Origin: Tomocerus qinae
Lineage: Eukaryota; Arthropoda; Collembola; Entomobryomorpha; Tomoceridae
Direction of reading: 5' to 3'
Length of the DNA stretch: 64,000 nucleotides
NCBI GenBank assembly: GCA_020055645.1
Contig: CM034546.1
Span: 84,444,001-84,508,000 of the forward strand
This document shows positions 4,168 through 47,700 of this stretch, one piece after another. Numbering within the stretch: position 1 is the first letter of the stretch; each line of letters begins with the position of its first letter. The notes below the pieces were generated by a model. That model saw only the letters and a program-made list of their open reading frames with translations. It made no database searches and was not told the DNA's origin. Both the position numbers and the translations under genes were made by a program.

Positions 4168-4964
4168 ATACTAGAAAAATGCCCGTCCTACGGACGGGAA
4201 ATTATCAACACTAACCACTCATAATAACACCAAATCCAATAATTTTACCAAGAGTTTAAACAGTTGCTGTTTAAAGTCATTTTATCACCAGCACAGCATT
4301 TTGTTTATGTTTCGAATAGTTTCGAATATTTTCGAACAGTTTCGAATATTTTCGAACAGTTTCGAACAGTTTCGAATATTTTCGAACAGTTTCGAATATT
4401 TTCGAACAGTTTCGAATATTTTCGAACAGTTTCGAATATTTTCGAACAGTTTCGAATATTTTCGAACAGTTTCGAATATTTTCGAACAGTTTCGAATATT
4501 TTCGAACAGTTTCGAATATTTTCGAACAGTTTCGAATATTTTCGAACAGTTTCGAATATTTTCGAACAGTTTCGAATATTTTCGAACAGTTTCGAATATT
4601 TTCGAACAGTTTCGAATATTTTCGAACAGTTTCGAATATTTTCGAACAGTTTCGAATATTTTCGAACAGTTTCGAATATTTTCGAACAGTTTCGAATATT
4701 TTCGAACAGTTTCGAATATTTTCGAACAGTTTCGAATATTTTCGAACAGTTTCGAATATTTTCGAACAGTTTCGAATATTTTCGAACAGTTTCGAATATT
4801 TTCGAACAGTACATTAATCTATTGATTTTCTATTGCTTTTGATGGTCAAAATTATTTTATTTTGATACTCAAAATTTACCAATAAATATGAAAATAAACC
4901 TAAAACTTTGTAAACGGTCCCCTTCACTCAGGCGAGCTTCTGTTACGGCTTGCCGTAGGTTTTA
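4168..4964 (+). mobile_element. head-array-tail element with 20-bp minisatellite (copy 1)
   Basis: The left end reads ACTAGAAAAATG followed by the palindrome CCCGTCCTACGGACGGG (4182-4198). After about 110 bp, a 500-bp array fills 4311-4810. The right part (4811-4964) has a tail found again at 14160-14318 and ending with CAGGCGAGCTTCTGTTACGG and GTAGGTTTT. No protein is encoded. The plan (short hairpin near the 5' end, central tandem repeat, conserved tail) resembles non-autonomous Helentron/HINE or pearl-type elements; that assignment is inference. Confidence 0.7.
4311..4810. repeat. 20-bp minisatellite, 25 units
   Basis: The unit TTCGAATATTTTCGAACAGT repeats 25 times. After irregular first units, nearly every unit is identical. 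Each unit contains two TTCGAA palindromes or near-palindromes. As 20 is not divisible by three, all frames stay open and give spurious repetitive peptides on both strands. Confidence 0.97.
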
Positions 4965-4983
4965 AAATGCAGACGTTACCCCA

Positions 4984-5142
4984 TATAAGCCTTTCTCACA
5001 ATTGCTTTCTGGTCACCAGTTGAAGTGAAGCTCAGTAGATGGAAACATAGTATTTTCAGGCTTTTTAATTTCTAATTCTCTACCTCCATCTACTGAGTTT
5101 CACTTCAACTGGTGACCAGGAAGCAATTGTGAGGAAGGCTTA
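4984..5142. mobile_element. short foldback element (~59-bp arms)
   Basis: The sequence 4984-5042 (starting ATAAGCCTTTCTCACAATTG) is repeated in inverted form at about 5084-5142 around a ~40-bp spacer. No coding capacity; it looks like a MITE. No second copy was noticed in the window. Confidence 0.7.
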
Positions 5143-7465
5143 TTGGCAGTAGTCCATTATTTATCGCATTAAAGAATCGATGAACCTAATTATTTGTGTC
5201 AGAGGGAATCCTAAAACATAAATCCCTTAAAAAGTTAAAATATGATGGTCAGAGTTGTTTTCAGAAATACGCGTAATTCTTAATCGTAAGATGATGCCAT
5301 ATTATAAGAATATGGAAGTGTCACTATACCTGAGAGTTGGGTTTCCGGTTTGAATGGCAGAAGGGTGCGTCTGTGGTCTGTGTATATGGTATGTGTGTAT
5401 AGAGAAAATAGGAGGAAGGTGGGAAGTTTGGAACAGGGACTTATTAGGAATGTCTATCTAGTGTCATTGGATTTCCAACTTTCTCTCACTTGACTGTACC
5501 ATGAACCAAAGACATCTCTTGTAATACTTAGTACACACTCAAGGCGACACACACATTCACTTAAGAATAATATGTATGCATGGCCTGGTCTGACTCTGAC
5601 CCTCCTGCACTCCACGCGATGCAATGTAACTTTCTTCCACTCTCGCCACGATGTTGACCACAAACATCTCACACTACTGTCTTCTCTCTGTTTCTCCCGC
5701 TTCGTTCCACACGCTCATCTATTGTTTATCAGAGATATAAACACTACTTGCACTAACTGTAACTATCTACACTATGACTTACACTAACTGTAACTATCTG
5801 CACAGATTTTGTAATCAACTTTGTAGCTATCATTCTATAATAGTTGAAGTTTTTGGCACACAAAAGGCATTGCTTATTTTCGCTAATAGTTTTTGTGGAA
5901 GTTTTAGATGGAGTGTTGATCATGATCCTCCGAGTCTGGGATCCTCCACACACCGATCAACTAACCGTTTGTGTCATGGCACTGTAATTGAATTGACTCA
6001 CTGTACTGCACTATTGAGATGTCACAGGAACAAGATGGACAGAGTTGTCTAGGGAGGAGATCTGTCTGAGTTGTGTTGAAGTGATATTGAGCAGAAAGAG
6101 GAGGTCGGCTGAACAGATATACATCTTCCAATAACAGAATATTATTACGACAGTAGTATGTAGTAGCCCTTCTAGTCCCTCCACTGCCTCTGTCTCAATC
6201 TTCAACAGTCAATATCTATCCTTGCAAGCCAACCCTGTTTTTCGTTTGGGCCAAGTAAAAGGATATTTCGACAAGAAATCAAAAGACTACTCTTGCAGTA
6301 CATTGACTAGGCGTGTACATTTATAGCCTCTGTTACAGATATCCTTCGCTCACTTGAGATATTCGCGATGTGAAATTAGCCACATTACAATGTAATAATA
6401 ATGTATCAGTACAGTAGTACGCACTCACCGTAGTACTGACTAAATTAAAGCGAGGTTTTGTTCCAATTAAAGGATGGGGATGAAATGGTCAAATGATAGT
6501 GCATATAGCTGGGTGAGTGTGAGAGTAAATTGGACAGAGAGAGAGTCCGTCGGTGTGTGATAAAGAGTACTAGAGAAGAAAGGGATATGCGTGGAGTTTT
6601 TGTCGCAATCCAGTGTGAAATGAGCATGAAGTGTAGTGTGCAAGTAAACTGGTAAGTGTGGTGCTCCTCGATAGACTCGCTAATAAAACAGTTTAGTGTA
6701 TCTTGGACTTAAGTAGTCATTGCATATTGCTCCTCCTACTTCCATTTCTGTGCTTATTTAACTTCAATCTTAGCTTGATGTAGTTTTACTCTTCTTAAAA
6801 GCTTGAAACAATAATAATGTTCAGCGATAGTACCTAAGTACCTATTACTATCTATTACTTATGAATAATTTTATATGCACATATTATACGTGGATATTAG
6901 TAGTTCATACGTACACTGATGAGCATAATATTATATCGATGAGGACGGGTAAGTAGTAGGAAGAACCATCATCTAAAGACAAACTCCTCCACTACTCCAC
7001 TACTACTGACATTTAATAAAATAACAGTATAGGCGAATATATACAGAGCTGATGCGAAAAGCTACAGAATAGGCCGAGAGAACGCTATACGCGACTTGCT
7101 AAGGTAAATGATGGCATTTAAAGGTTAAGGCTTTGTTTGGCTGCAAGAAAGATCACTCTCATTCATCTGCTTACAAGACTATGCTATCTATCCACCCTCC
7201 ACACTTACTTAAGGAACTCGTACTCAAATTATTATACACTTTTATGCGTCTGTAATAGTTCTGTGCATACAGGACAGGTTAGGGAAGCAAGAGAGGTGCA
7301 GAAGATCTATGGAGATGAACAGACTGAAAACCAACTCGCCCTTTGTTATTTTTGGCTAATATAATATTACTCTGCGCTGCCTGATCCCTGTATCGGGTCT
7401 ACCCCTATACTATAAACACTTGTCATTAAATGTCTAAAATATCGCTCTCTGGGCCGTTTATCTAT
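5143..7465. other. non-coding DNA
   Basis: About 2.3 kb without a supported gene. Open frames of 60-90 codons occur on both strands but none resembles a known protein or has splice-flanked conservation. Composition is a little less AT-rich at 5400-6700. Confidence 0.35.
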
Positions 7466-8147
7466 CGGGTTAATGATTTTGTGGCTGTAAAAGAAGTAAC
7501 TTTGGCAGTAAAAAAAAGTCTTTTGGGCAAGGGTACTATAGGCAATACGTCTAATTTTTCAGGGCTGTAAAATAAAGTACGAAAGGCAGTAATACCAGTA
7601 GTAGTGGCTGTAACGAAAATGATTTTTATTTAGTCAAAATTAAATCACAATTAGTTGAAAATTAAATCAGCGGTCAAATCAGTGTCCACTAAAACTAAGT
7701 GTCCACTAATTTTCCACTAAAACTCAGTATACTAAGTAAACTCAGTAAATTATACGAATCGAGTCTACGTCTAAGTTTAGTCTGAGTCTTAGAATTAATG
7801 GAACATATTTTATTACAAACCACCAGCAACTCCAACGAAATAATGAATTACCTTAAATTTCTTATCAGATGTAAAGTATAATATAGCAAGCTATCACTGC
7901 ATCGCACTACATCAAGTTGAATTGCATTCATTTTTATGCTCAAAGAGTATTCGAAGCCTTAAGTCTTCTAATTATTAATGCTAATTTTTCACCTACAGCC
8001 ACTACTACCCGTACTACTGCCTTTCGTACTTTATATTACTGCTGTCAATACTCAGTTTTAATGCCTATTGTACCCTTGTTCAAAAGACTTTATTTTACTG
8101 CCAAAGTCCAAAGTTAATTCTTTTACAGCCCCGTAAATCCCTACCCG
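7466..8147. mobile_element. TIR element with ~150-bp inverted ends
   Basis: The stretch 7466-7625 (GGCTGTAAAAGAAGTAACTTTGG, then AGTACGAAAGGCAGTA) recurs in inverted form at about 7985-8147. Outer ends read CGGGT and its complement ACCCG. The ~360-bp core is AT-rich and has short repeats of GTCCACTAA. No transposase is present, so it is a non-autonomous DNA element. Superfamily not determined. Confidence 0.7.
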
Positions 8148-8794
8148 TTTTCAAAAAAATCCTGAAATTGTTTTTTTTTCATATCACTTAGTAGATTAGA
8201 ATCTGAAAGTGACAACTTCTTGGCTGTGACATTTTGTTCCGAGCCTGCATGGTCTCTTATGTATTTACTCATGTACTGTAGAAAAATAGCCACTTAGGAG
8301 AATACCAACGTATGGATGTTACCGACTCACTGTCTTTTATTTGCCTGATATTTTGGCAATTAGTATAATTTTAGAGTGAAAATGAGAAATTATTATTATA
8401 CATTTTGGAATTAGAATGTGATCTATACATCACCTTTTAAATATGTCAAGAAAAAATTTTGTCCCTCATATGACGGAAGATATTTACAGATATAGTTATG
8501 CCCCGGTTACATATATGTTCTTATGGTGTATGGACAATATTTAAGTTTCTATAACTTTAGTTCTCACCACTTCCCACCATTCATACTACTACATATTATT
8601 TTACTACATTATACTACACTAGGCTCCCAATAAAATTTGGCAAATTTAGAAAGGTAGGCGTCTGGCAACCATTAGCAGAAGTTACAAATAATTGCAAAAG
8701 TTCCAGCACTTGTCGCATAACAAAACACTTTTCACACAGATGAGAATGTTGACAATTCGCGTCAATTGGAGGTAACTCATTTCGATGGAAGAGG

Positions 8795-9030
8795 AAGTGG
8801 GCATGCGCATTTTGTTATTTTGCCTTTAAGGAGCGTGCACATATTAAGTGTACAGTTGATGGGAGGAGGAGGTAACTGAAAGTGTTACAGTCAGCATTTA
8901 CGTTACAGATAGGGAAGGGGTTTTGCGTTGCACAATAAATGCAGGTCTCCTATAGGCTCTCCTACCAGACATACATAGATATATAGTTAGGTTGGTAAAT
9001 TTATTGGTTTATCTCAGCCTGTGGTTATAA
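8795..9030 (+). mobile_element. 3' part of an ACTAGTGAACCC-headed element (family H2)
   Basis: Shares with 42480-42690 and 45585-45790 the run GGGCATGCGCATTTT, GATGGGAGGAGGAGGT, TTACAGTCAGCA and CTCTCCTACCA. The head module is missing, so this is a truncated copy. It is followed directly by the TAC repeat, as if the element had seeded or landed in a microsatellite. Confidence 0.6.
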
Positions 9031-9038
9031 TATAAAGA

Positions 9039-9297
9039 TTACTACTACTACTACTACTACTTACTACTACTACTACTACTACTTACTACTACTACTACTA
9101 CTACTTACTACTACTACTACTACTTACTACTACTTACTACTACTACTACTTACTACTACTACTACTTACTACTACTACTACTTACTACTACTACTACTAC
9201 TACCTACTACTACTACTACTTACTACTACTACTACTACTACCTACTACTACTACTACATTATACTACTACTACTACATTATACTACTACATACTACA
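9039..9297. repeat. TAC/ACT trinucleotide microsatellite
   Basis: About 260 bp of TAC repeats interrupted by an extra T or C at regular intervals (TACTACTACTTACTAC). The interruptions give a secondary period of about 16-25 bp. Confidence 0.95.
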
Positions 9298-9565
9298 TAT
9301 TTTATGGAGAATTTTTTGAAATAATCTCCATATGCGCATAGCTGCGCCTTAAGAGACTTATTTTTCCCGGAAAAGCAAGCTTATAAAACTGTAGTTTGTC
9401 AGTCAGTTCAATAAACTCTAGTAAACTTTGATAGATATTGACTAAACCTGACTTAAACATTGGTTTAAAACCAGGGGCAAATGCATTTGCATCTCTAGCA
9501 AACTATTATGCAGCGCTTTAATTAGGGCGATCTTCTGTAATGGCTTGTAAAGTAGGTCTTGCAAT

Positions 9566-10507
9566 TTTTTTAAATTTTCTTTGTTACTGAACATTAAAGT
9601 ACACTGGGTTACACTATTACAAACTTAATTAGTTCGGTTTTAACAAAAATAAAGACCTAAACGAATTTCCAAAAAATCAGCCAATTAAAACACTGTGCGA
9701 CTGTACCAATGTTGCTGTTGTACTCACCTAGTATGCTAGAGTCTCATGGGAGGGTTGCGTGTGCCTGTCGAATTTCTTGTCGTTGGTTATAGTACAATAT
9801 TATATTTAAAATAAAACAAAATAAATCTCTAACTCATCGGACCTCTCTTGACTAGATTCAATTCTTGGGAAATATCTCCCTCTCCCTGTCTTAATGTGTG
9901 TTATTCAGAGATGTGAAAATACCCAATACCCGCATATCTAAACGGTATATTCAGACATTCAGAGCATACGTAGAGAATCATGAGTAGAGATAAGGTAGAA
10001 AGAAGGGGGAGGGGAAAGACAGCACAATCTCCAATATCTTTTCATGGTCGACGTCCAAATCAGTGAAAAACATTCGGCCTAAAGACACAACTGCCGCTTA
10101 GATTTCTATGAAGTGTCAATGAAGTCCTTTTGAACTTGTAGACGTGGCCTCTATTTGATGAAGGTCAAGAGCGTGTAGCCACAGTAGCCAGTATAGTCAT
10201 AAGTATACGTGTACGTGAGTTGTATTTCAGAGTTGTGGTTGTGGTGATTTGATTGAGGTAGGTTAAGTGAGAGAATTTCTTAGCTTGATGTTTTGTTGAT
10301 AAAATAACTTTACTGTTTAAACAAGGCCGCAGCGAGGGGGGGACCAGGGCATGTGCCCCCGAAATCGAGAGAAATAAAGTATCCAAAAACGCAAAAATTA
10401 CTACATTATGATATTTTATCTCGGTGATCATTTCATTTGATAAATAGTTACTTATTTTTATATGTAGCCTTAGCCCTGTACAATATTGTACATGATTGTA
10501 CTTTAAT
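9566..10507. other. non-coding DNA
   Basis: No gene is recognised. Near 10320-10370 there is a GGCCGCAGCGAGGGGGG..TGCCCCCGAAATCG signature, shared with the small hAT-like element at 49342 and with 33720-33770. It marks the end of an old DNA transposon relic. Confidence 0.4.
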
Positions 10508-11690: not shown

Positions 11691-11734
11691 CAGCCAAAAG
11701 GAACATATTTTTTCCTTAGTTTGGCGCGAAATTT

Positions 11735-12600: not shown

Positions 12601-12730
12601 GGAGTTTATCTCCTATGTATGCGTTTACCCTTTCTCTCATTCGTAAAAACGAAGTTTTTTTGAACAAGTGAATACTATGGAAATGTTATTTTCCACATGT
12701 AAACACAAATTAAATAAACACTACTTCTAA

Positions 12731-13337: not shown

Positions 13338-14318
13338 GCTTTTCATTATGATGGTCAATATTTACTGATTTTGATTTTCTTTTGATTTTTATACTCCATA
13401 TTAATCAATTTAGATTTTAGCTCACCTGACGAGCTTATAGAACCCTCCGTCCGTACCCAAGATAACTTTTGAACGAATAGACTGAAGTTGGCCAAAATTG
13501 GCATAAACAATGCATATGGACTGGTGACGATTCCTATTGATTTTGATATGAATCGGTCCATAGGTTGCTGAGATACCTCAATTTGTCTTCATTTTAATAG
13601 TCAAAGTGAAAAATATAATCGTAAATAATTCCAGTCCAAATATATTATGCGGCTTTTATAGAAGTTGATATTTTATAGTAAAGTCACTAAAACCGATAAA
13701 AACGTGTTGTAGGATCTAAATCAATCTTTTCAAATTGTTTTTATATTTCATAGTTATTATTAATGTATTTTGATTTTCTGTTAATTTCGATACTCAATAT
13801 CAATCAATTTTGATTTTCTGTTGATTTTGGTATTCAATTTTAATCAATTTTGATATTCAATTTTAATCAATTTTGATTTTATTTTGATTTTGGTATTCAA
13901 TGTTGATTAATTTTGATTTTTGTTTATTTTGATATTCAATATTATTTAACTTTGATTTTTGTTTATTTTGATACTCAATATTATTAAATTTTGATGTTCT
14001 GGTGATTTTCATAGTCAACAATTATCTATTTTCATTTTCTGTTGATTTTCATAGTGTACATTATAATATTAGGATTTTCCGTTGATTTTGTTAGTGTACG
14101 TTATGATATTATGATTTTATGTTGATTTTGATAGTGAACATTATTCTATTGATTTTCATAGTCAACTTTAATCTATTGATTTTCTATTGCTTTTGAAGGT
14201 CAAAATTAATTAATTTTGATTTTGATACCCAAAATTAACCAATAAATATGAAAATAGAACTGTGTACACCGTCCCCTTCACTCAGGCGAGCTTCTGTTAC
14301 GGCTTGTTGTAGGTTTTT
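13338..14318 (+). mobile_element. AGCTCACCTGA-headed minisatellite element with shared tail
   Basis: A head at 13419 (TAGCTCACCTGACGAGCTTA, then TAGAACC and CCGTCCGTACC) is followed by a subterminal region, an array of about 40-bp units (13770-14200) and a tail ending at 14318 with CAGGCGAGCTTCTGTTACGG and TTGTAGGTTTTT. The head motif AGCTCRCCTGA recurs inverted in the tail. A piece of a second array (13338-13418) abuts the head. The element on the minus strand at 35937-37193 is a relative. Confidence 0.65.
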
Positions 14319-17575: not shown

Positions 17576-17997
17576 AACTTACTATCAAAAAAACCCATTC
17601 CTATTACCAACTAGTGAAGTTACCCGTCCTACGGACGGGGTAGTAACAGAACGGTTGCATTCCTTAAAAAATTTCTAAATTTTTTAAGGAATTCAAGCGT
17701 AAAATTTGTAAAAGTTATGTTTATCAATGTGGAATGATGTGTAGAGTAGAATATGGAGTAAGTGTGGAGTAAAATAAGGACTAAGTGTGGAGTAGCATAT
17801 GGAGTAAGTGTGGAGTAGCATATGGAGTAAGTGTGGAGTAGCATACGGAGTAAGTGAGGAGTAGCATATGGAGTAAGTGTGGAGTAGCATATGGAGTAAG
17901 TGTGGAGTAGCATATGGAGTAAGTGTGGAGTAGCATATGGAGTAAGTGTGGAGTAGCATATGGAGTAAGTGTGGAGTAGCATATTGTAAGCAATGCA
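17576..17997 (+). mobile_element. head plus 23-bp minisatellite (copy 2), left direct repeat of a 3.9 kb block
   Basis: From AACTTACTATCAAAAAAACC onward this stretch is repeated at 21103-21500. It includes CTAGTGAAGTTAC, the hairpin CCCGTCCTACGGACGGG (17623-17639), a small CTTAAAAAATTT..AAATTTTTTAAG hairpin and a 23-bp array at about 17745-17986 (unit core GGAGTAAGTGTGGAGTAGCA). No tail module follows. Identity before the array appears complete between the two copies. Confidence 0.75.
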
Positions 17998-21076: not shown

Positions 21077-21102
21077 GCCCCCCAGCGTCCGACTTACAAC
21101 TT

Positions 21103-22143
21103 ACTATCAAAAAAACCCATTCCTATTACCAACTAGTGAAGTTACCCGTCCTACGGACGGGGTAGTAACAGAACGGTTGCATTCCTTAAAAAATTTCTAA
21201 ATTTTTTAAGGAATTCAAGCGTAAAATTTGTAAAAGTTATGTTTATCAATGTGGAATGATGTGTAGAGTAGAATATGGAGTAAGTGTGGAGTAAAATAAG
21301 GACTAAGTGTGGAGTAGCATATGGAGTAAGTGTGGAGTAGCATATGGAGTAAGTGTGGAGTAGCATATGGAGTAAGTGTGGAGTAGCATATGGAGTAAAT
21401 GTGGTGTAACATATGCAGTAAGTGTGGAGTAGCATATGGAGTAAGTGTGGAGTAGCATATGGAGTAAATGTTGTGTAACATATGGAGTAAGTGTGGAGTA
21501 GAACATAAAGTGGTTTAAAGAGTACTAACCTCAAGGGTGCATGAATTACCCGTCACCCACCACGAAGTTACTCCCTGTCAAAATGCCACCTGCCGTGTAA
21601 TTACCCTTCAAAATTAAACCTGCCATCCACTTGCCCATTAAACATCTACCTGCCGTCCACTCGACCATCAAACATCCACCTGTCGTCCACTTGCCCATCA
21701 CACATACCTCTGTCGTCCACTTGCCCATCAAACATCTACTTTGATTTTATGTAGATATTTCAAATGATATAGCTTCGTTTCCTTATAATATCAATGTCTG
21801 AATTTTTAATATGTCGTAGCTACATATATAAAGACTCAATTCTGAAGGTTTGGTCAAAATCCGTACGCTCGGTCTTATATTACACTTATTCAAGTGATAC
21901 AACTACGTTTTGGCTGCGTTATGACTGTATTAGGATCACGTCAGTTTTCATATATCCTTATAATATCAATGTCTGTATTTGTAATATGTCGTAGCTACGT
22001 ATATAAAGACTAAATGCTGAAAGTTTGGTCAAAATCCGTACGCTAGATTTTGTGTTACATACGAATTTTGTTCTTCTACCAAATTGTGTACACGATACCC
22101 TTTACTCAGGCGAGCTTCTGTTACGGCTTGTTATAGGTTTTTA
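21103..22143 (+). mobile_element. head-array-tail element (copy 3), apparently full length
   Basis: The head CTAGTGAAGTTAC plus CCCGTCCTACGGACGGG (21145-21161) is followed by a 23-bp array at about 21270-21500. A second array of ~30-bp units lies at about 21560-21735 (core CCACTTGCCCATCAAACATC). Next comes an internal duplication (21790-21870 and 21965-22045, sharing ATATGTCGTAGCTAC), and then the tail CAGGCGAGCTTCTGTTACGG ending near 22143. The left ~400 bp equals 17576-17997. Confidence 0.7.
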
Positions 22144-22520
22144 GCTAGCCTGACGAGCTATAAAGAATCGCACAGTCTGTCCGTCCGCGCGATGAAACTA
22201 CCCCAAGTCCGTCCCCACGATAACTCCCGAAGGAATTGACAGAATTTGGCCAAACTTGGCAAAAACGTCGTCTATGGGTTTGTGACGATCCCTATTGATT
22301 GTTGACAAAATATGTCTAACGGTTCGCAAATAACAGCTGAAACAATATGTTATTTAATCTTTGGTGTCACTGTTGATTTGCATAATGCCGCTTTTATTGA
22401 AAACTTGTTGAAAAATTCTGTCAATTCCTTTGGAAGTTATCGTAGGGACGGACTTGGGGTAGTTTCATCGCGCGGACGGACATATTGTGCGATTCTATAC
22501 AGCTCGTCAGGCGAGCTAAA
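22141..22520. mobile_element. inverted-repeat element built from two AGCTCGCCTGA heads
   Basis: The left end TTAGCTAGCCTGACGAGCTA and about 115 bp after it are repeated in inverted form at the right end (to TCGTCAGGCGAGCTAAA). The arms include CGCACA, GTCCGTCCGCGCGATGAAAC and AGGAATTGACAGAATTT. Each arm is the head module known from 13419 and 37193, so this is a head-to-head version without array or tail. It starts exactly where the tail of copy 3 ends. Confidence 0.75.
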
Positions 22521-22559
22521 ACACTCAATTTTCTAATTAATCGCTTGACACTACATTGC

Positions 22560-26700: not shown

Positions 26701-29700
26701 AAAGTGGAATCAAGTATTACCCCTAAGTAACGAAACTAATATACTCTATCTATTACCATTCCATTATATATAACATCATCATATAATTTTTTAATACACC
26801 TTTGTGGAAGATCATATATTTAGTTTTTTCTATATTAACTTCTATTTTGTTTATTTTGCACTAATACGGTAATTTAACAAGATTTTCATTCAATAACTTA
26901 ATAGCTACATTTACGTCACTATTCTCAACCCAACATACCAGATGATCTGCATAAAGTGCATATTCTATATTAAAGCACTTACCCACATCATTTATAAAAC
27001 AACTAAATAGTAGTGGTCCTAAAGCCGAGCCGGCTCCTGTCCCTGCTTCTATTATGTTGTATTCTGAGTAATAGCTACCATTTCTAAGCCTTACAATTCT
27101 ATCATTAAGATAATTATTTAATAATTTTACCATGTTAGGTTTAAGCTTAAACTGTTCAATTAATTTAATCATAAGTAGGTCTTTTTGAACAACATTGAAT
27201 GCAGTCTTAAAGTCAACAAATATTGCTACCACTCTATCATTTACTTTGTCTATATTGTCATACACACTTTGTGTAATTTTTAGAATGGCATTCTCACAAC
27301 CACGATTCGCTCTGAAACCGAACTGGTTGATATCTAAATCATTATCTACCATTCTTGTTAGCCTTTTAAATATTACATTTTCAAATATTTTACATAAAAA
27401 TGTCAGACCAGCAATTGATCTGTAACTTCTTGCCCCGAAGTAGGAGCCTTTACCCTTATATAGTGGTGTAACACTTGCCATTTTGAATTGCACTGGCAGA
27501 ATGTATGTATCAAGTATAAAGGTAAACATAATTGCTAACGGTCGAGCCATTGACTCAGGTAATTGCTTAAAAACTCTTTTTGGAATATGATGTTCCATGT
27601 TGCTACCTTTATTTACAGAACCAATGGCTTTTGTAACTTCTTCATTAGATAACTTCGAAATCATATTATTTCATAGTATCCTTATGCTCTTTACAATACC
27701 ACTCAATTCTATTACTCAAGTCTGTATCACTAAATGTACTATCTTTTTTTTACAAACATAGCATCATAAAACTCTTTACATATATCATCTTCACGTTCTA
27801 AAACTACCCCATCATCATTAATTAGTTTCGTGATAGCCATGCCAGATTTATTCCTATATCCAGTAATTTCATTCACAACATCCCATATATTTTCACCGCT
27901 GGCATCCTGAAACTTCTTAGTATCGTATTTTCGTTTAGCTGCATACATCATATTGCTAGCTTTATTCTTAACAATTTTATATTGTTTCCAATCATCCTTA
28001 TTATTGGACTTAATTGCACATTTCTTAAGCTTGTCCCTTGTTCTATTAATTTCCACTATATCACTACTGAACCAGGGTGCATTTCTATTTTTGCACAATT
28101 TTTTTGTTACAGGAGCGTATTTATCTAATAAAGCTATGATTTCGGATTCAAACCTAAAAATATTTACATCTATTACATCATCAGTCAAATAATTAAAATC
28201 CATACCCATTATTTCATTCTCAAAGGCTTCCCAATTAATTTCCTTTCAATGGATTTAAAAATATTAAATTCCTAAAAATGGGACAATTTAAAAGTTCTTT
28301 GGGGCTTTTAAACTATTTTAGGATAGGAAAACTATTTAATAGGATTTTTTTAAACTATTTTAAAGGAACAATGACAAACATCAGAAATTATAGAATCTGC
28401 TACTGGATATTCCCGGATTCCAAATCTGTCAGTACCATCAAAATCAACTGCTTGGTTCGGGAGGAATTTCGCCAAATGTAACGACAGTTTTAACATGCAT
28501 TTTGATACTTCCTTGTGGTTGCTATGTATGATGTAGGTGTGTAGTCCATACTTAACTACTTATGCTTTCATTATTTCAATTCATTGATGTACTGCCTCCT
28601 AATTAAAGCTCTCCATTAACGGCGGAATTTCACAACAAAGGCAATTTAATCAGTAAAATATTACAGTGCATAATTTGATCACTATGATCACTACTTGTTA
28701 CCAAATAGTAATAATAATATACGTGCTTACGAAAAGTAATGTGTTTGCTTATGGCTGTGTTAAAATATGTTAATGTTAACACTTTTTATGCCTTAAATTT
28801 TGTTTATATAAGCCTAAATAATAGTAGTTGCAAACTTACACCAATGTTGTTATTGTCAGATGTAGTATTCTCCTATAGAATAATATAGGCTTGCATTTAA
28901 GCCAATAATTATAAAAATAACCTTAAACTCAAAAGACCACAAAAACCGGGGGGAGGGCCGAAGGTTTTTTTCCTAAAAAACATTTTCCCAATAATCGTTT
29001 TCGATAGCTAGGATAGGAATAGGAGTAAATACTAGAATTAAGCCCGTTCTACGGCCAGGAAATAAAATACAATACTTATCAAATCAACATAAATTCAATA
29101 TCATTTAACCAAGCAGTGAAATTTTTTCTACAGCAAATGCTCGAAATCCTTTCCCCTGCGCCTGATTTTCATGAATATCATTAACTTTAAATAACCCTGC
29201 CGTTTTACATTACCCGTCATTGTAATGTAAATGACCCCGTAATTTTAAACCGACGTCATTGTAAATGACCTTGTAATTTTACACAGATGTCATTGTAAAT
29301 GACCCCGCGTCCTTTTGAAATAGACGTCGTTGTAAATGACTCCTTAATTTCGAAACATACATCATTGTAAATGACCCCCTAATTTTAAACAGACGACATT
29401 ATAAGTGACCCTGTAATTTTGAAATAGACGTCATTATAAATGACCTCGTCATTTTGAAATAGATGTCATTGTAAATGACCCCGTAATTTTAAACAGACGC
29501 CATTGTAAATGACCCCGTAATTTTAAACAGTCGCCATTGTAAATGACCCCGTAATTTTTAACAGACGTCATTGTAAATGACCCCGTAGTTTTAAACAGAC
29601 GTCATTGTAAATGACCCCGTAATTTTAAACGGACGTCATTGTAAAAGACCCGGTAATTTTAAACAGACATCATTGTAAATGACCCCGTTATTTTAAACAG

Positions 29701-32700
29701 ACGTCATAGTAAATGACCCCGTAATTTTGAAATATGCGTCATTGTAAATGACCCCGTAATTTTGAAATATGCGTCATTGTAAATGACCCCGTAATTTTGA
29801 AATATGCGTCATTGTAAATGACCCCGTAATTTTGAAATATGCGTCATTGTAAATGACCCCGTAATTTTGAAATATGCGTCATTGTAAATGACCCCGTCGT
29901 CATTGTAAATGACCCCGTCGTCATTGTAAATGACCCCGTCGTCATTGTAAATGACCCCGTCGTCATTGTAAATGACCCCGTCGTCATTGTAAATGACCCC
30001 GTCGTCATTGTAAATGACCCCGTCGTCATTGTAAATGACCCCGTCGTCATTGTAAATGACCCCGTCGTCATTGTAAATGACCCCGTCGTCATTGTAAATG
30101 ACCCCGTAGTTTTGAAATATGCGTCATTGTAAATGACCCCGTCGTCATTGTAAATGGCCCCGTCCTCATTGTAAATGACCCCGTCGTCTTTGTAAATGAC
30201 CTCGTCGTAATTTTAAATAGACGTCATTGTAAATGTCCCCGTCGTAATTTTAAATAGAGGTCATTGTAAATGTCCCCGTCGTAATTTTAAACAGACGTCA
30301 TTGTAAATTTCTGCCACTCCTTTCGTGTTAAAATTCGACATTCAAAAATTCGTAAAACGATTTCTATGAAAGATATCGTTTTGAAACTCGAGGTTTATGG
30401 TTCTGACTCTGATGTGCCTATCTAGAAAAAGTCTGTAGCTAAAAAACTACTATGAAGTCTGTTACAATACAAATATTATAATGATAATATTGTCCATGTG
30501 TGAGTTATAGGTGATGACAGTGAATCCGATGTGTGAACACGTGGAGACGGCCCAGGGAGTCCCTCTGACAGTCACGGGAGTTGCCCAAGTGAAAGTAATG
30601 CGGGCCGAAGACTTGCTACGAACTGCTGCTGAGCAATTTCTCGGAGTTCCTGTCCACGCCCTCAAGTCCACTGTCAACCAGACACTTGAGGGACACTTAC
30701 GAGCTATTCTGGGCAAGTTATTTGATAGAATTAAATATTATAATTTCTCTATTAATTATTTGGTGTTCTGCATCTCAATTAAATCTACTTATTAACAATG
30801 ACGATCTTTATCTGAGAGAAAGGTTAGGAAAAAAACAGAACTTTTCTCAGGTTACGGATATGGAACATCACAGATCGTTCGAAAATTGTAAGAAATTAAA
30901 TTAGGAATTCACAGGATTTTCTTGTTAACATTGATACCCATGATGAAACTGTTAAAGATCCTGTTCCTCTGATAATAATTTAAAAAGTTTCGAATTTTGA
31001 AAAACAGTGGTTTTCTAATCTAATATTAGCCGAAACCCTCATCTTAACCTAATCGACACACTAACGACGTATAGTTAAAACTATCCCTGGTTTATTGTAT
31101 AATCTATGCAGTTTTTTATTTGTAGTTGCAAATGCAAATCTAATGAAATTACAAATTGCAACATGAGTTCAGTTGTAAGCAAAATGAGAGAATGATATAT
31201 CCCTTGGATGCCCGCAGTGGTCCATCCATGGATTTTAGGACTTTGTTCTGTCCTTACTCAGAGCAGATTATGCCTTATAACCTTGTGAATTTTTGTGTTT
31301 GTCAAGAATGCGTTTCTCTCTTTATGTAGAAAATTTCATTAAAATTGGTTGATATTTAAGGCAAAATAAAAATAAATAACTCAAAAGTGGGACCACTTTC
31401 CTAAGTTAAGATAGATCCATAGCATGTAAATATTGCGTTGAATTTCAGCTAACTTTGTGTCGCTGCAAGCCAAGTTATACTATAGCTACAAGGACAAGTA
31501 ATATCTCAAAAAAAGAGAATTTTCTAACTTGGTTACTAACGTATAAAAACTTTCAAAATTTAATTTCGATAAAAATTTATGAAAGCATTTGCAATAGTCA
31601 TCAGTATACGGCTATCACAAAAAAATTTGAAAAATTCTCAACGTCAGTAACCAAGTTAGACCAACCTCTTTTTTTGAGTCCCTGATTAAGGGTGTAGCTA
31701 TAGTAGAACTGGGTGATCAATGGGAAATAAATTTCGAAAAGTTATTGTATGTAATTTAGTACAAATAACTACCCCTGCCAGTTTGATCATCGTTACATAG
31801 GTGCCACACCGGTGTAACCGTTACAGTAACGTAGGATTGTGAGTGGGGTAATAAGAAAATGTGTATCATTAATCATTATTGAAGTTTGTTGTCTATCCTC
31901 ATCCTCACTCACTCACAGCCGTCATTTTACATTAAAACTCCCATTCCTAAAATGACACAAACCACAACCAGGCCAAAGGTTATTTCTTGCGAGGGAAATT
32001 TAAATTTTGACACTCGCAATATTTTTGTAGTACTACGTAATCAATACTTCCTGTATTATTCTTAATTCTTATTATTTCATAAGAGAATCAAGAGTCGGAG
32101 TAAAATTTTTTTTAAATCCCCTTAGCTAAATGTATCTATTCGGTGTATATTATCATACTTCATACTTTGGTGTGCCAATTTAATGCTAAGTGTTTGTTGA
32201 GGAGATTATGAAACGGCACCTGCTAGGAGCCCGACCCTAGGCCCTAGACTAGTACTACGAGTACCAGTTCTAGAGTATCGTCGTTCAAATCCTATGAAAT
32301 CGAACATCTTGTGTATTGAAGTGTCAGTAGCAGTGTCAACATTTGGGTTTGTCTTTGCATAACAACAATAAAAATCATAATATTATAGTATTAACAGTAT
32401 TAAGTTGGAAACGGAATTAGACAAGTGACATTGGCATTTTGAAATTATATTTTTCAATTTTATTCTTTCCATCGAACAATATTGCCCCAGACACCAGAAT
32501 ACACAATTGACAATAGCGTTATTGTAACAGGACCTGTATCCTGAATCCTGCAACTCGGCTAGTTACCACATAATCACCAGTGTTCGGTGACCAGCCGGCT
32601 GGTTGGTTAAAAGGGCCGGCCAGCTAATTGAAATTCTTGGTTAGCCAGTGGCTATAAAATGGCCAAAAATAATCAAATGGGGCTTTGTGAACAGAGAAAA

Positions 32701-35700: not shown

Positions 35701-38700
35701 CAAAATGCCATTTCCTTCTCTCTACATTTGAGGAATGGCAATATGTATTATTCCATTACCTTTTCTTTGACCTCCATGCATTTTTGATTCATGTCCAGTG
35801 TGCGAAACAACAACCACTAACCCCTATATAAATATGAGAGTTTTCGTTCACACTGTTACAATTACACACAATTATTTTAATATGAATTATTGTTGCATTC
35901 AATAATTTTTAAAATAAAAACCAACCTAAATGATTTACTAAAACCTACGGCAAGCCGTAACAGAAGCTCGCCTGATCAAAGGGGGCCGTGTACACATTTT
36001 TTGGTGGAACAAAATACATTTATTTTGATAAGTAAATTGTTATTCGAATTAGTTCAATATTAATCTATTTTGATTTAAATAGATTAATATTGACTATTAA
36101 AATCAACAGAAAATCAAAATAGATTAGTATTGACTATTAAAATCAACAGAAAATCAAAATAGATTAATATTGACTATTAAAATCAACAGAGAATCAAAAT
36201 AGATTAATATTGACTATGAAATTCAACAGAAAATCAAAATAGATTAATATTGACTATTAAAATCAGCATAAAATCAAAATAGATTAATATTGACTAATAA
36301 AATCAATATAAAATCAAAATAGATTAATATTGACTATTAAAATCAATATAAAATCAAAATAGATTAATATTGACTATTAAAATCAACAGAAAATCAACAT
36401 AGATTAACATTGACTGTGAAAATCAACAGAAAATCAAAATAGATTAGTATTGACTATTAAAATCAACAGAAAATCAAAATAGATTAATATTGACTATTAA
36501 AATCAACAGAGAATCAAAATAGATTAATATTGACTATGAAATTCAACAGAAAATCAAAATAGATTAATATTGACTATTAAAATCAGCATAAAATCAAAAT
36601 AGATTAATATTGACTAATAAAATCAATATAAAATCAAAATAGATTAATATTGACTATTAAAATCAATATAAAATCAAAATAGATTAATATTGACTATTAA
36701 AATCAACAGAAAATCAACATAGATTAACATTGACTGTGAAAATCAACAGAAAATCAAAATAGATTGATATTGACTATTAAAATAAACAAAAAATCAAAAT
36801 TGACTAATATTGAGTATCAAACTAAACAAAAAATCAAAGTTGATTAATATTGAGTATCAAAATCAAAAGAATATAAAAATCGGTTAATATTGAGTATCAA
36901 AATCAAAAGAATATAAAAATCGGTTAATATTGACTATCATAATGAATTTGGTAGAAGCGTATTGAAATATTTTATACTATCCCGCTAAGCGCGCGGTATC
37001 TCAGCAACCAATAGACCGATTTACCCCAAATTCAATAGGGATCGTCAGTGGTCCATAGGCATTGTTTTTGCCAAGTTTGGTCAATATCCGTCATTGCTTT
37101 CGAAAGTTATCGTGGCGACGGACGTACGGACGTACGGACGGACGTACGGACAGACTGTGCGGTTCTATAAGCTCGCTTCCTCAGGCGAGCTAAAAATCAA
37201 CAAATTGTACTAGGGATTGTTGCGTTACTACTATTCTGGACCCTTACTAGATCGTTGTATTGGATTGAAACGATTCGCTCACATTTTTATGTATTCATAG
37301 TTCATTGGCACACAATCATAATGAGAAAACGTCATTTTTGAACCTACATTATTTATGGACGGTCCCTAATATTTTTTGTTAATATTTAATTTGGTATATC
37401 ATTTAGTACGGAATTAATAAATACAATATACGAAATTTTATAATTTATATCATTACATCATTAGCGGAGACTGCCCTTGGTATGATTATAGGAGGCGTTG
37501 AGTGTATTAGCCTGTCGTCCTTGCCCTTTGACACGCCTTGATGTCAAAAGAACGACACAAATGCTGAAATTGGAAGTGTGTGGACATTATCTTCCATTTT
37601 GGACTGTTTCTGTCGCCCCATTCCGTTCGTGCCAGTTTCTACCACTGGCCACTATCACCTATAATGTCAGCCTTCCTCGACTCGGAAAATTTCTTTTGTC
37701 TACGAGTGCACAGTGTTCCATTAGCCATGAGGTTTTGGCATTCTGTATATTTTTAGATTAAAAACATGAAATGAATTTTTAACATTTTCAAATTAGAAGC
37801 TGTTGTAGACATCGCCAACAAAATTTTGTGGGCACAAAAAAAATTTTGTGACCGTTATACCAGTATATATGTGCATATATTATCATCTGATTATTATGGA
37901 CTCTTATGGAAACTGGATAAGTTCCTATAATTATTGTTCTCCCCACTTCTCCCCTATCATTCTAGTATCGAAAATTTTCTAATTTTATGAAGAATTTTTT
38001 GAAATTATTTCCAGCTGCACATAGCTGCACCATTTTTAGATACAGCTTACCCGAAAAAACAAACTTATAAAACTGGTCTTATACGGTCTTATAACGATAG
38101 CTCTCGAACTCATTGACGGATTTTGACTAAACTTTACAAAAACGTTGTTTATAAGCCATTGACGAAACTCAGTGATTCTGGATTAAATCGGTTCGCCGGC
38201 TATTGAGTTTATGCGGCCCCAATACTTGGGCGGGCTTCTGTAACTACTTAAAAAGTGAGGTTTTGGATGATGGTGAAAATATGCTTTCAAACCTCAAGCC
38301 AACTAGTTTGCAAAACTACTTGGTTAATTAAACTGGTTTTTAAAACGAATAAAAGCATATTAGACAAATTGCCAAAACCTCATGGCAAATGGAACACTGT
38401 GGAGTGTGAATGGGAACTGTACAGTGTGAACGAAAACTCTCATATTTGTAGAGGGGGTAGTGGTTGTTGTTTCGCACACTGGACATGAATCAAAAAATGC
38501 ATGCAGGTCAAAGAAAAGGTAATGGAGTAAAAAAAATCATTTTTAACCCTGTCAGCAGTTATATGAAAAAGACCTCTTAAAAAGGAAAGCAAAATATCTT
38601 TTGAACCTCTGGACAGATGTTGATGAAAAATGGTATGGAGACCCCTCATAAGTATATCTCCGGACGTATTTTGAATAAGCTGTAAATTCTCGGTTTTTCG

Positions 38701-41700: not shown

Positions 41701-44700
41701 GGCAAACCTAGCACTCAAGAGAAATTCAGCAGGCCACCCAACACAGTAATAAAAACAATTTCGAAATGATCCCTTAGGTTATTATGTTAACTTAAATAAG
41801 TAAATACAAAGTTTATTTAAATTAATATACTTTTGGTTGCAAAATTGGCTAAAACCCCAACTTCCTGCTAAAAAAGAATTTCCTAAACCAAAATAATAAC
41901 TGTAGCTTCAAATGCAGGGAAAAATGAAAAACTCCATTTTGGAAAAAAATCTACAAAGTCACCAAAAAGCTCCCTTTTAAATCAGAAAAATAAGATTCCC
42001 CCTCGGATTTTAGAAAAACGTACAAATTCTATGAGTTCAATTTACGAATAAATATTTTTAAAGAATAAATAGTTAGTTACCTAGTACTGTTATTTAATTC
42101 TACAAAAAGGTGTGCAAACTGCCAAAGGAATCAAGAGGGTAGTAAAAAAAGTAAACCCATCTCTACTAAAAAATGTTAATAAATAAATAAGTCTGTCGAT
42201 ATAACAGAGCCAATTTGGATTAGAAGTTTTGAAATGCTATTTAATAAGGCACATTGCGATCATTACGAAATGTCCCCTTTCGCTAATCATTTCCATTCAA
42301 TCACGAATCACCATTCAACCTTCTTATGTAAATTTCTAATATTTTGGTGTTACAATAATATGAAACGACTCATTTCGGTTGTTTAGAGGAATTAATGGTT
42401 TCAATAATGTACCCCAACGCATACCTCCATGTACTAAATTTATCACATGAAGATATGCGTTGGGGTACTTTATTGAAAACATTAATTGGGCTTGCGCATT
42501 TTGCTTTAAGGAACATGCATATATTACGTGTGCAGTTGATGGGAGGAGGAGGTACTCAAATGTGTTGCAGTCACCACTTGCGTTACACAAGGTGGAGTGG
42601 GTTTTGCATTACGTAATATATGTAGATTTCCTAAGTTCTCCTACCAAGACAAACATACATAGGTAATTTTTTTCAAGTCTAGGATTATATTATAGATTAG
42701 TTGGGCTCGACCACACTTTAAAAAAGATGGATTTCAGCAGTATTCAGCAGAATTAAGTTTAATAGTAAGAAGTTTACGTATTTTGTATTTACTTAGTGTG
42801 CACAAAGGCAAGGGTTTCCACCCCACCCAGCACAGTCATCGGCCCATTTCCATGAACATAGAATCGGAAGACTGCCTCCAAATTCTCATAGCGAGCCTGA
42901 ACGAGAGAAACGGGCTGGTCTAGGGTAAACACCAAACCGCCGTAGCCAATGTGGTCTTGTAGATTATGCCCAACTGATAAATCCTACTGGGCAGGAAAGA
43001 AAACAATCTCAGTCAATTATACTCACAGATAAAAGAGAATTAACCATCCAAGGAGTTCGCTAACTTGAATGCGATAGTGTAGATTTGTGTTAGGGATTAG
43101 TATTTGTACCTGAACTACGGGAATTCCCATTTGAGCTAGATGGGCGGCAGGTCCGACACCGGACAGCATGAGAAGGTGTGGTGAGGAGACACCACCAGCC
43201 GACAAAATGATTTCCTTACTAGCCGTGACCACTCTGGGTTTCCCGTTGTGGAAAACTTGGACTCCCCAGGCGCGTTTGTGAACGGAGTCGATGAGAACTC
43301 TAACGACATGGGCGTGGGTGGCCACATTTAAATTAGGTCTCAGACGAGCGGGACGGAGGAATGCTCGGGAAGTACTGCAGCGAGAGCCTCTTCGAATTGT
43401 TCCTTGAGCTACCATAAACCCCGTCTGGTACTCCCCATTGATATCTCGGTTGTCGTAGCCCAATTCGTTGCCTCCTTGGACGAAAGCGAGAGCAAGGGGA
43501 GTGCGCCATGGAGCTTCCTGTACGGTCAGGTACCCTCCTGCCGAATGGTATGGAGTGTCCACCAGATAAGGATTTCGGTTGTCCTCTGATTTCTGTGGTA
43601 TACACCGAATCAACAACTCGTTAGACCTCATCTCTAGAATAAGACTTTATTTTTACATCTTCGGTCGATGGGGGAATATGAAGTCGTTCTAAGTCGTGTC
43701 GTGTATCACCTGGAAGTAGTAGAGGGCACTGTCATAGCCCCATCCGGGGTTCCCTAGAGACTCCCAGAGGTTGTAGTCGTTGCGGTTGCCTCGAACATAT
43801 AGCATGTAGTTGAGGACGGATGAACCTCCGAGGACTCGGCCTCGGGGCCAATTTGACCTCCCTCCTGTCAGTCCCAGACAGGCCGTGGGCATCGGCTCGC
43901 TTTTGTAGCCCCAGTCTACTCTCGTTAGTTGGAGGTATCCCGCCAAGGCCGGAGCATTCGAGATCAATTCAGGCTCATCTCCTCCTGCTTCCAGCACTAG
44001 AACATTCCACTTCGGATTTTCTGACAATCGATTTGCGATGACCGCACCTATTTAAATGTAGATGAGTATGTAATGCGTCCAATTAAGAATCCATAGAGGT
44101 ATAAAAATGTAAAATTGTAGGCATGTACCTGCAGATCCAGCCCCAACAACAATAAAGTCGTAAGAGTTAAGTAGTTCTGAAACAACGATAGGTCGTCCCT
44201 CCGGGTCGTACATGTCGTACAAGTTGTAACCAAAGAAGGCAAGGGGAATGGGCAAGAGCCAGAGACCCGCCAATACTATCGCCAATCCCGCAGTAATCAT
44301 GTCATCGGATTCTCTCCAACCGTTCTCACACTTAAAGAACTCACAATACTAAACGTCCTTACATGCACACAGCAACGATACACGTCTTCTTATAATATTC
44401 CATCCATTATATAGTATTTCAAATTTCCATTCTCGGATTCAATGAGTTCGGTTATTGTGTTACATACAGAATCACACTCCACCACAAGTCTTCTTAACTT
44501 TACTTGGAAGCAGTGAAGAATTGATGTTAATCATTCCGTAGAAACTGTTTAAAAAAGTTTTAAAAAAGTGTTTCCTTCGAAGTGCTTCACATGTGTACAA
44601 TCACATTATTTATATATATTGACGCACATTGAACGACCGCAAGTTACCTTTTCCACGTGTGCAGAAAAACTAATAAAATGCTCCATTATCTGCTACTGCT

Positions 44701-47700
44701 ACTGGTAAAGTTGTATCGTAGTTGTTGAGGATTGAGTATGTCTCTGTTATCCTGTCCACGAGGATTATATGAGAATTCAAAGGCTATCTATGTCCAATAA
44801 TTGTAAATATGTTCATTGAATGAAAGTTCATTTACATATTTACATCTCATTTACTGATGATGGAGAAATAAGGCAGTCTTGTTAGTCTTAGGAGAGTATA
44901 TATCGTTGCCCAAGGCAAAGACTAGGAAGCTGAACATAATATGATAGCACCTCGCACTGCATACTCCGCTGTTACTCGCTCCTGAATACCTCCAATGTCT
45001 GCTATTCTTAGCACTTATTCAAATACAAAAATGGTACCACTGATTACTGTCTGTCAATCTCAGGAGCTACGAGCTGTCTCTTCTTTATGTGAATACCTTT
45101 ATATAAGTACAGAGGACGATGCCACCTAAAGCGGTCGTACCTGTCTTCTCAGAACTCACTCACTCATACTGATTTTAATATTGGGTATTATTATCACTGA
45201 AAGTCACAACTCTTACCTGTATATAATAAAACTAGTGAACCCAGCTAAGGGGCGAACCTGGCACTCATGAGAAATTAAGCAGGCCACCCATCACAGTAAT
45301 AAAAACAATTCCGGTTCAAATGGAAAAGTCCCTAAACCAAAATAATAATTGTAGATCGTAGTGTCCAATGCAGGGAATAATAAAAGATTATTTTTATTAA
45401 ATACTCCAGAATGTTCCCCTTTAAAATCAGAAAAATATGATCCCGGGATTTTGGAAAAAGAATTGTCTTCTTTAGCTAATTATTTCCATTCAATCACCAA
45501 TAATCATCTTATGTGAATTTGTATTATTGTTCTGATGTTATAACAATATGAAGCAACTCAATTCGTTGGTTTAGAGGGAGGGGCATGCGCATTTTAGTTT
45601 TGTGCTTTCAAGGAACGTGCATATATTACGTTGATAGTTGATGGGAGGAGACGATATCCAAAAGAGTTACAGCCAGCACTTGCGCTACACTTGGGAGAGG
45701 GAGTTTTAGGTTACGCAATATATACAGGTTTCCTAGGCTCTCCTACCAAGACATAGATAGTCAGGTATTAGTGCGATTATATTATAGAATTATTAGGGAT
45801 ATGTTGGTTGTGTAGGTATAACGTATAACGTGCAAGAAGATATAAACACGTTAGCAACTGTATTTGTACACCTTCAACTCCTAACTAACCCATTTTGAAT
45901 TTCCATTCTGTTTAAGCAGCTATTTACTACTGTTACATATTATGTACTAAAAATATATAACCGTCCTACGGACGGGAAATTTTCTGCAGTTATTCAATCA
46001 TTATAATAATGTATCTCAAATTCAATCATTTAATCGAACAGTGAAACTTTTTCTGCTTTTGCTGTTTAAAGTCCTTTCATCACATGTAGAAAATTTTCAT
46101 TATTGACAAAAAGTAACCCCGTTATTTTCAATAACCCCCACCCATTCAATAACCCCTGGGATTTTCAATAACTCTCGGTATTATCAATAACCCATGGTAT
46201 TTATGGTATAAATAACTCCGGTATTTTAAATAACCCCAATATTTTACATAACCCCGGTATTTTAAATACCTCAGTATTTTTATTAGTCCCACTGTTTTAA
46301 TCGGCCTCGTTGATAAAAGAGTAAAAGTAGCCTTAGCCAAGTTAGACTCACTTAAAAGGCTGGTAACTGAGAAAGTAATGGGTATGTTGATTCATTGTTA
46401 TGTAATAAGTATTTATGATAATTGTATTTGTGTCTGGGCTAGACAAAATAGATTACAACTGCAGCTTACACAAGATAGAATTAATAGGTTGGTGGTAAAT
46501 TTTTTATCCTAGAATATGTAAGTTTAGGGGGATTAGAAGAAAAGTTGGAAGCAGATTTGTTAGTAGTTGGTTTAACAAAATTAAAATTAATTGTCTACAG
46601 TTGTTTACTAAGGCTACAATTGTTTACTATTTATGAAAGACGAGAAATAGGCCTGGTAAAGTTGGTATGGAAAAAATTAATTGGTAAGCTAGCAGGAACT
46701 GAAAGTTTGTTCAATGTAAATATTAAATATAGTGGTACCTTTCCACGAGTGACCTCTATTATATCTAGATTGACTTCTGTTAAACATACTGCTGCTGCAG
46801 CATGGAATAAGTTACCGCGAAAATGGGTATACAAAGATATGTCTTTAGTTATGCTGGTTGATCAATTTAAAACGATATTGGAATCGAAGCGGGATAATAT
46901 GTTTATTTTTTACTGATGTAATTGCGTGTTGTTATTATTAATTACTAGTTATTAATGTTTATTTATATTATGACTGTTGGTGAAGAGCGGTGATTGTTTT
47001 TACTAACTATCACCGATTTGTGATGCGGTGTAATTGCGGTGTAATTGAAGGGTCTATCTTGTCACTTGAATAAAGCTGAACTCTGAACTATTACGGCATT
47101 TGTATTTCCATTACTGGAAGGAATATTAGGGTGGAGGGAACGGCGCACAAGACTGTTCGCTCCTTTTAGTGTATGAATTGTTGGGAGCTCTGCTCTCTAA
47201 CACATGTGCAGTAAAAATTTCAAAGATATTTAACTGTAGTAATAAGGGGTATCTGAAATGCTATTATTATATAGATAGGAGACCTGAAGAATTTTCCACT
47301 GCACTGCTGCGGTGTCAAATACTGTGTTTAGAATTTACTACTCACTCTACAATAATATAAATTATGTACTAAAAGAATGTTATCTTTCGGCGATTTGTTC
47401 ACGACACAAAGATTCATGTGATCAGTGTGACGGTAGTTGGGTGAGTGGTGTGAAGTGTGGCGTGTGATGGAAGAATGCGCCGTTGTTGCTAATTTCCTAT
47501 GTTAGCGACTAACCACCTAACCTTCTTCCTGTATTCTTATTCTGCTATAACCCAACACACTCAACACTATTCAACAGTCTTAAGTCTTCCTAAGCCAACA
47601 ATAACCTCTTGTCGTCTCATCCCACAATCACCACATAGAGATTTATAAGATGTTAACTCAGACTCAGATCAAGTACATTTCAGTATAGGACTTGAAATAT

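Follow-up and report, generated by a model that had tools for sequence, protein, structure and literature searches.

Apparent modular repeats in a Tomocerus qinae contig are probably two adjoining classes of rolling-circle transposon

Do repeats that combine a shared palindromic head, a tandem array and an exchangeable tail make up one modular family of mobile elements? The question is raised by a 64,000-nucleotide stretch of the Tomocerus qinae genome (contig CM034546.1, here C1; C1:84444001-84508000; assembly size 334 Mb), which is called the window and to which positions without a contig refer. In the window, a palindrome is found exactly at 4182, 17623 and 21145, with one mismatch at 45960 and with three at 29043; these five sites gave eight match rows because three of them register on the minus strand too. 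CTAG stands directly before four of the sites and ACTAAAAATA before the fifth, and tandem arrays follow all five. A tail, CAGGCGAGCTTCTGTTACGG, is present exactly at 4929, 14283 and 22107 on the plus strand and at 35955 on the minus strand. Both motifs are beyond chance (mean chance matches 0.03 for the palindrome and 0.00 for the tail). An earlier note, accurate as to the sites, the letters before them and the array periods, took them for a single family in which heads, arrays and tails are exchanged and each copy acquires a minisatellite of its own. The head-array-tail order at two window loci and a tail that also closes elements with another head speak for that view, yet for the reasons given below we consider it very improbable. 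Instead, with a probability of about 90%, two classes of rolling-circle transposon, a canonical Helitron that was read backwards and a Helentron, both non-autonomous, adjoining and with arrays common within families, were merged into one.

Canonical Helitrons are described as having a 5' TC, a 3' CTRR, a palindrome of 16-20 nt about 11 nt from the 3' end and an A/T target, with no target site duplication (TSD) (PMC4067079; this and the other papers cited are drawn on in part). On the minus strand, the head reads as a 17-nt hairpin, 6-9 nt (mostly 6-8), CTAG and then T. A genome search with the head at 4168 gave 151 candidates, the best 40 of which were scored, one being the window's own; the other 39 loci, each with about 1 kb before and about 4 kb after the head, were compared. 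In these 39 further copies, the head opens a compact 273-bp element, here H1, whose far end, reverse-complemented, is A then TCATACCC. Similarity among the loci spans ACTAG to about position 273 and beyond that there is as a rule none; in an alignment of 37 of the 39 copies (L045 and L051 left out; labels such as L017, L025 and L042 denote genome loci outside the window), positions between ACTAG and TATGAT mostly agree at 0.8-1.0 and those beyond at 0.3-0.7. Reverse-complemented, H1 reads TCATACCCATAGG … CCCGTCCGTAGGACGGG-CTTATTT-CTAG.

The insertion points of H1 are consistent with the same class. An exact CTAG was placed in 29 of the 39 copies, several of the 10 unplaced having variant letters, and host A precedes it in 28. 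The other end was placed in 30 copies, and T follows …TATGA in 27 of them (9 of 39 unplaced; GA is part of the search motif). Target duplication is not evident: among the 33 usable copies of the 39, flank-repeat scores average 2.5, versus 2.1 when flanks are paired wrongly. At L045, an H1 copy is interrupted at ATTTATACATTA / TCACGG by a 1456-bp TC…CTAG element from a different family; with that element removed, the sequence matches the H1 consensus across the join, giving a clean rebuilt empty site. Only suggestive is L042, where the joined flanks of H1, ATGATAATA / TAATGT, give a 15-bp word of the host's adjoining 27-bp array. None of 200 shuffles folds as well as the hairpin at either 4168 (z -3.67) or 17609 (z -3.06), and hairpin plus CTAGT has 242 genome matches versus 0 for the reversed pattern. 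A 5' TC, a 3' CTRR (TCATACCC … CTAG), a palindrome and A/T insertion without TSD identify the head CTAG…CCCGTCCTACGGACGGG as the opposite-strand reading of the 3' terminus of non-autonomous canonical Helitrons (5'-TCATACCC…17-nt hairpin, 6-9 nt, CTAG-3').

A short interspersed nuclear element or other retroposon was considered for the 273-bp element, whose …GATGATG end is like a short-repeat tail, and rejected, as there is no mean TSD excess and the reverse complement reads TC…hairpin…CTAG at A/T. A structured RNA was likewise set aside, as a scan of the window against Rfam at gathering thresholds was negative.

The window copy of H1 is the following:

4171..4316, minus strand: 3' part of a canonical Helitron of the 273-bp type (H1), 5'-truncated; CTAG 4171-4174, host A 4170, hairpin 4182-4198

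This copy keeps just the first ~149 bases of the 273-bp element, and the other end (…CTATGGGTATGA) was not found in the window. The block is matched by 46 records, or 39 distinct places with 7 counted twice, the best relative being L017 (93%). Of the 39 H1 loci, 13 have a tandem array (score >=50) beginning within 1.5 kb after the head start, the nearest at +292; none of the 39 has an array starting inside the element, which argues against a family in which every copy acquires a minisatellite of its own.

The heads at 17623 and 21145 belong to a sister subfamily, H3, which resembles H1 in its ends and has a 23-bp minisatellite:

17611..17984, minus strand: 3' part of an H3 canonical Helitron with 23-bp array; CTAG 17611-17614, hairpin 17623-17639

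21133..21739, minus strand: H3 canonical Helitron; CTAG 21133-21136, hairpin 21145-21161, 23-bp array 21261-21501, 30-bp array 21578-21736

For H3, 40 of 167 candidates were scored, two being the window's own (38 outside the window), and six were examined further over 701 bp each. The 23-bp array follows the hairpin in all six, with varying copy number. One of them, L076, ends in ACTTTGCGATTATCTTATGGGTATGA as H1 does and is the sole H3 copy showing both ends; within the 701-bp stretches of the remaining five, the other end was not seen. About 400 bp are duplicated at 97.5% identity, 3.5 kb apart (17576-17984 and 21098-21501), including ~35 bp beyond CTAG, either by local duplication or by read-through transposition. 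At L025 (C1:84435530-84440530), 4.6 kb outside the window, a complete H1 is followed by an H3-type 23-bp array at +314 and later by a 30-bp array, while an H3 head is absent from the 5 kb examined. Because these arrays lie outside the H1 end, we read the locus as an H1 beside a broken H3.

The two remaining heads are divergent members of the same class:

29032..30305, minus strand: divergent canonical Helitron 3' end; CTAG 29032-29035, decayed hairpin 29043-29059, 34/21-bp arrays 29226-30291

45947..46280, minus strand: divergent canonical Helitron 3' end (TTAG on the minus strand); hairpin 45960-45976, 18-bp array 46114-46280

Their hairpins fold better than 197 (at 29030) and 199 (at 45946) of 200 shuffles, and the copy at 45947 is ~70-76% identical to H1 copies over positions ~15-138.

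The tail leads to another class. Helentrons and HINEs are described as having a palindromic 5' subterminal inverted repeat (subTIR), a 3' subTIR, a short palindrome, T strings at the borders and central repeats (PMC4067079). An exact search for the 36-bp tail gives 316 matches in the genome versus 0 for the reversed control. The head AGCTCRCCTGA and the tail motif TCAGGCGAGCT are inverted repeats of each other, as 5' and 3' subterminal repeats. Ends were counted at 12 loci, window included; loci duplicating others were left out, as were heads failing the hairpin filter (e.g. the one at 22143). Within the stretches examined, the head lies 0.66-1.22 kb upstream of 7 of 19 tails. TAGGTTT follows all 19 tails and TT directly precedes 10 of 11 heads; such border Ts can be the element's own (PMC4067079). 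A palindrome near the 3' end, TACGGCTTGCCGTA, is present by reading of the letters, with a fold z of -0.98 versus shuffles. A 40-bp array unit recurs at 991, 13847 and 36077 and in L023 and L043. A Helentron/HINE family has the tail as its 3' terminus and AGCTCRCCTGA as its 5' end, with the 40-bp minisatellite between the two. The likeness to Helentrons and HINEs suggested earlier holds for the tail and the AGCTCRCCTGA head, with their inverted subterminal repeats, T-rich borders and 40-bp array, but not for the palindromic head, which is a canonical Helitron 3' end. Members of the tail family in the window are:

991..1590, minus strand: Helentron-type 5' end (~1580-1590) with 40-bp array 991-1172

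4811..4966, plus strand: Helentron-type 3' end, 5'-truncated; subTIR TCAGGCGAGCT 4928-4938, hairpin, TTTT

13419..14318, plus strand: Helentron-type element with both ends (AGCTCACCTGA … TCAGGCGAGCT and hairpin) and 40-bp array

21780..22143, plus strand: Helentron-type 3' part with 105-bp direct repeat, ending in the TCAGGCGAGCT tail; L043 matches 21780-22141 at 83%

22139..22521, strand not assigned: short element consisting of a pair of Helentron 5' ends in inverted arrangement (inverted repeat of 109 bp, 92.7%), immediately following a Helentron 3' end

35938..37195, minus strand: Helentron-type element with both ends and ~21 copies of the 40-bp unit

A decayed Helentron-like tail with no clear partner is also seen at 9523-9547 (<=5 mismatches over 25 bases).

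What, then, are the two stretches 4168-4964 and 21103-22143, previously regarded as complete copies? When matched to the genome (low-complexity sequence filtered, records that repeat the window excluded), each comes apart into two blocks that match different families. The region 4100-5000 gives 4171-4316 and ~4811-4966 with the array between them, the second block being matched by 10-11 records, some of them the same place counted twice. The region 21080-22560 splits into 21132-21739, which L080 matches in one piece, and 21780-22141, which L043 matches in one piece. In both composites the partners lack 5' ends and their 3' ends point outwards. The two stretches are 5'-truncated minus-strand Helitrons beside 5'-truncated plus-strand Helentrons. 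A deletion between adjoining insertions, or recombination through the arrays, would be the simplest cause.

These composites also bear on exchange of modules, which the loci examined do not support. Both motifs are 3' ends, of different classes. A match to 4811-4966 in the same orientation lies within 4 kb of just one of the 39 H1 loci, L043, where it belongs to a Helentron that follows with its own 5' end. The 23-bp array keeps to H3 in all six further copies, and arrays are common within families rather than new in each copy. A genome search with heads and tails, which the earlier note had proposed, gave A/T insertion points for H1 and two rebuilt empty sites, the clean one of the other CTAG family at L045 and the suggestive one of H1 at L042, but heads and tails do not appear to form one element. 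The H1 beside H3-type arrays without an H3 head at L025 remains on the side of the modular family.

The outward 3' ends raise a different prospect, namely that the composites are chimeric Helitron-Helentron elements with two 3' ends, formed by template switching in rolling-circle copying and mobile as units. Both ends of both stretches are indeed 3' termini, and the ~400 bp H3 duplicate 3.5 kb away, with its ~35 bp outside CTAG, is what terminator read-through would give. However, the join at 4168 has no second copy among the 39 H1 loci, nor has the 21739/21780 join in the few informative loci; the two classes use different targets, and adjoining insertions followed by deletion are simpler. 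We hold such chimeras to be highly unlikely and prefer neighbouring Helitrons and Helentrons.

The arrays were compared as 12 units in 66 pairs, with 100 single-letter shuffles each and pairs at p 0.01-0.02 not counted. Three groups of related units were found in the window: TTCGAA units (4309, 12093, 24192), ACCCCG…TTTTAAA units (29226 with 29877 and 46114) and the 40-bp units (991, 13847, 36077). The units at 29226 and 46114 score 22 versus a shuffle maximum of 16. Contrary to the earlier note, the units are not unrelated outside the duplicated pair: 29226 is related to 46114, and 4309 to 12093 and 24192 elsewhere in the window. Nor are the arrays private, as the 23-bp unit is in all six further H3 copies and the unit at 4309 has 591 genome matches at <=3 mismatches, with exact ones at four further loci among the matches listed:

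4309..4810, strand not assigned: 20-bp array GTTTCGAATATTTTCGAACA, 25 copies, with a unit common to other loci

The 20-bp TTCGAA array may have a history of its own. It is possible, although we would not favour it, that this minisatellite disperses independently and landed in H1 at 4168 and elsewhere, which would be compatible with two adjoining transposon classes. At four other loci (L067-L074) the arrays lie in three unrelated flanking contexts, L072 and L074 having a common upstream flank (…GTGTGCCAACAGTAATACTTC…), and no hairpin (<=4 mismatches), tail (<=4) or H1 5' end (<=2) was found in the 1.4-1.5 kb of flank and array edge examined at each of the four. Moreover, L017, the nearest H1 relative, has TTTTCGAATA at the array start point but is without an array. 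On the other hand, the four other loci examined are all on C1, a carrier family with ends further out is possible, and no empty site for an array was found. A more specific scheme, in which the minisatellite disperses alone by seeding at TTTCGAA words already present in unrelated elements and host DNA and its arrays then join pieces of different rolling-circle transposons, seems to us doubtful.

If H1 is a non-autonomous Helitron, machinery for it may be encoded elsewhere in the genome. Profile searches gave 96 matches to Helitron_like_N (PF14214), some being pieces of one copy, and 49 to the Pif1 2B domain. At C1:54.4 Mb, a decayed relic holds a broken Rep (C1:54405728-54406121), a Pif1 2B domain (54406928-54407068) and the exact hairpin plus CTAGT (54407990-54408018), in order, all on the plus strand and within 2.3 kb. 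This is one match, and by our own arithmetic ~0.02 such matches are expected by chance among the rows listed. In L033, minus-strand Rep and PIF1 frames are followed by a CTAG terminus ~0.7 kb beyond the Pif1 2B domain; the terminus abuts an H1 copy at that copy's position 264, and the rest of that H1 is not seen. The relic or the L033 element may represent the activity that drives H1.

We suggest that H1 and H3 would be moved in trans by a Rep-Pif1 Helitron and the tail family by a Helentron. Arrays may have grown by slippage, or by unequal exchange among members of one family, and the joins may have arisen through deletion or array-mediated recombination between neighbours.

Several observations weigh against the account of two adjoining classes. 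A Helentron 3' end lies within 1 kb of two of the five window Helitron 3' ends, versus one of 39 within 4 kb elsewhere. Because the 39 H1 loci come from the 40 best-scoring of 151 candidates, chosen by likeness to the head at 4168, the sample is biased to close relatives of that head, and divergent array-bearing relatives are under-sampled. The 21739/21780 join could be tested by few loci (L025 fully, L080 and L075 to the 701-bp end, L043 from the other side) because the L075-L080 stretches end at 701 bp. At 29043 and 45960 one end each is known, the other not having been found. Folding does not set the Helentron tail apart from shuffled sequence, 32 of 200 shuffles doing equally well, and the arms are changed in some copies. 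A TSD score >=7 is reached by 2 of 33 H1 copies versus 0.85% of mismatched pairs, one of the two being L042, inside an array; the empty site at L042 is judged from its 15-bp word because a 30-bp comparison at the join has 11 mismatches at best. L025, with H1 beside H3 arrays and no H3 head, could be cited for head exchange. Among the elements found, no intact autonomous one has the H1 5' end, and the one coding copy that carries the exact hairpin, the relic, is decayed and linked by its 3' end only. Nor was the tail family linked to an autonomous partner, none of the 96 Rep-like matches being tied to its ends in an analysis whose searches did not include the endonuclease.

Other observations concern neighbouring repeats and genes. 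Another CTAG-ended family (ACTAGTGAACCCAGCTAAGG… on the strand used in the earlier note) is found at 45231 (+) and 49264 (-), with the 1456-bp copy in L045, and the Rep-Pif1 element in L033 has a similar end. Convergent pairs of hairpin plus TAATATACTAGT, ~0.95-1.34 kb apart, number seven among 100 listed of the 242 matches: L081 (C1:30836770-30837810) and C1:4303722, 45660729, 65374275, 80709304, 82459262 and 102727004. L081, the one pair examined, is framed by a 189-bp inverted repeat, with a run of 7.6 (TAGGT) units and an 18-bp array inside. The run resembles the insect telomere repeat. The pairs had suggested a Heltir, but the inverted repeat of L081 takes in the outer 28 bp and extends to either end of the stretch examined; the pair was not assigned to Heltirs because it sits within a longer inverted repeat running past CTAG. 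In the window, a reverse transcriptase frame (26861-27664), a weak gag-protease-like match below the Pfam cut-off (20354-21076) and a frame for the N-terminal domain of a GMC oxidoreductase (43023-43631, minus strand), perhaps a host gene exon, have no tie to the elements.

The locus illustrates that back-to-back families of rolling-circle transposons can mimic a new modular element if one of them is read from the wrong strand. It also provides ends, flanks and copy numbers, the latter lower bounds, for one family of each class, canonical Helitron and Helentron, in this genome. The spread of minisatellites could fairly be studied with the dispersed 20-bp array. Helitrons have been reviewed as spreaders of satellite-like arrays (PMC9659126).

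How do these elements compare with known systems? H1 is like other canonical non-autonomous Helitrons in its 5' TC, CTAG, palindrome and A/T insertion without TSD (PMC4067079), whereas H3 differs in carrying an internal 23-bp minisatellite. A canonical Helitron subfamily with a minisatellite did not turn up in a literature search mostly limited to titles and the openings of abstracts, a weak negative; the array-bearing H3 has a design that the papers cited describe for Helentrons. Heltirs and ATons have terminal inverted repeats, those of Heltirs resembling Helitron 3' ends, and ATons insert at AT (PMC3422177); the L081 pair differs from Heltirs in that its hairpins lie within the longer inverted repeat. 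The tail family shares a palindromic 5' subTIR, a 3' subTIR, T-rich borders, central repeats and, by reading of the letters, a short 3' palindrome with Helentrons, HINEs and DINE-1 (PMC4067079), while its sequence and 40-bp unit are, as far as checked, this genome's own. Helentrons with exchangeable central tandem repeats are known from the oyster Crassostrea gigas as Cg_HINE (PMC7492417). The flank-array-flank design of these and of Pearl-type elements is alike: a given array keeps to one flank pair, related flanks can hold unrelated arrays, and some elements have two arrays (PMC7492417). The Cg_HINE units are mostly 140-180 bp (PMC7492417), versus 18-40 bp here, and one of the two classes here is a canonical Helitron. 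H1, H3 and the tail family are further members of known transposon classes.

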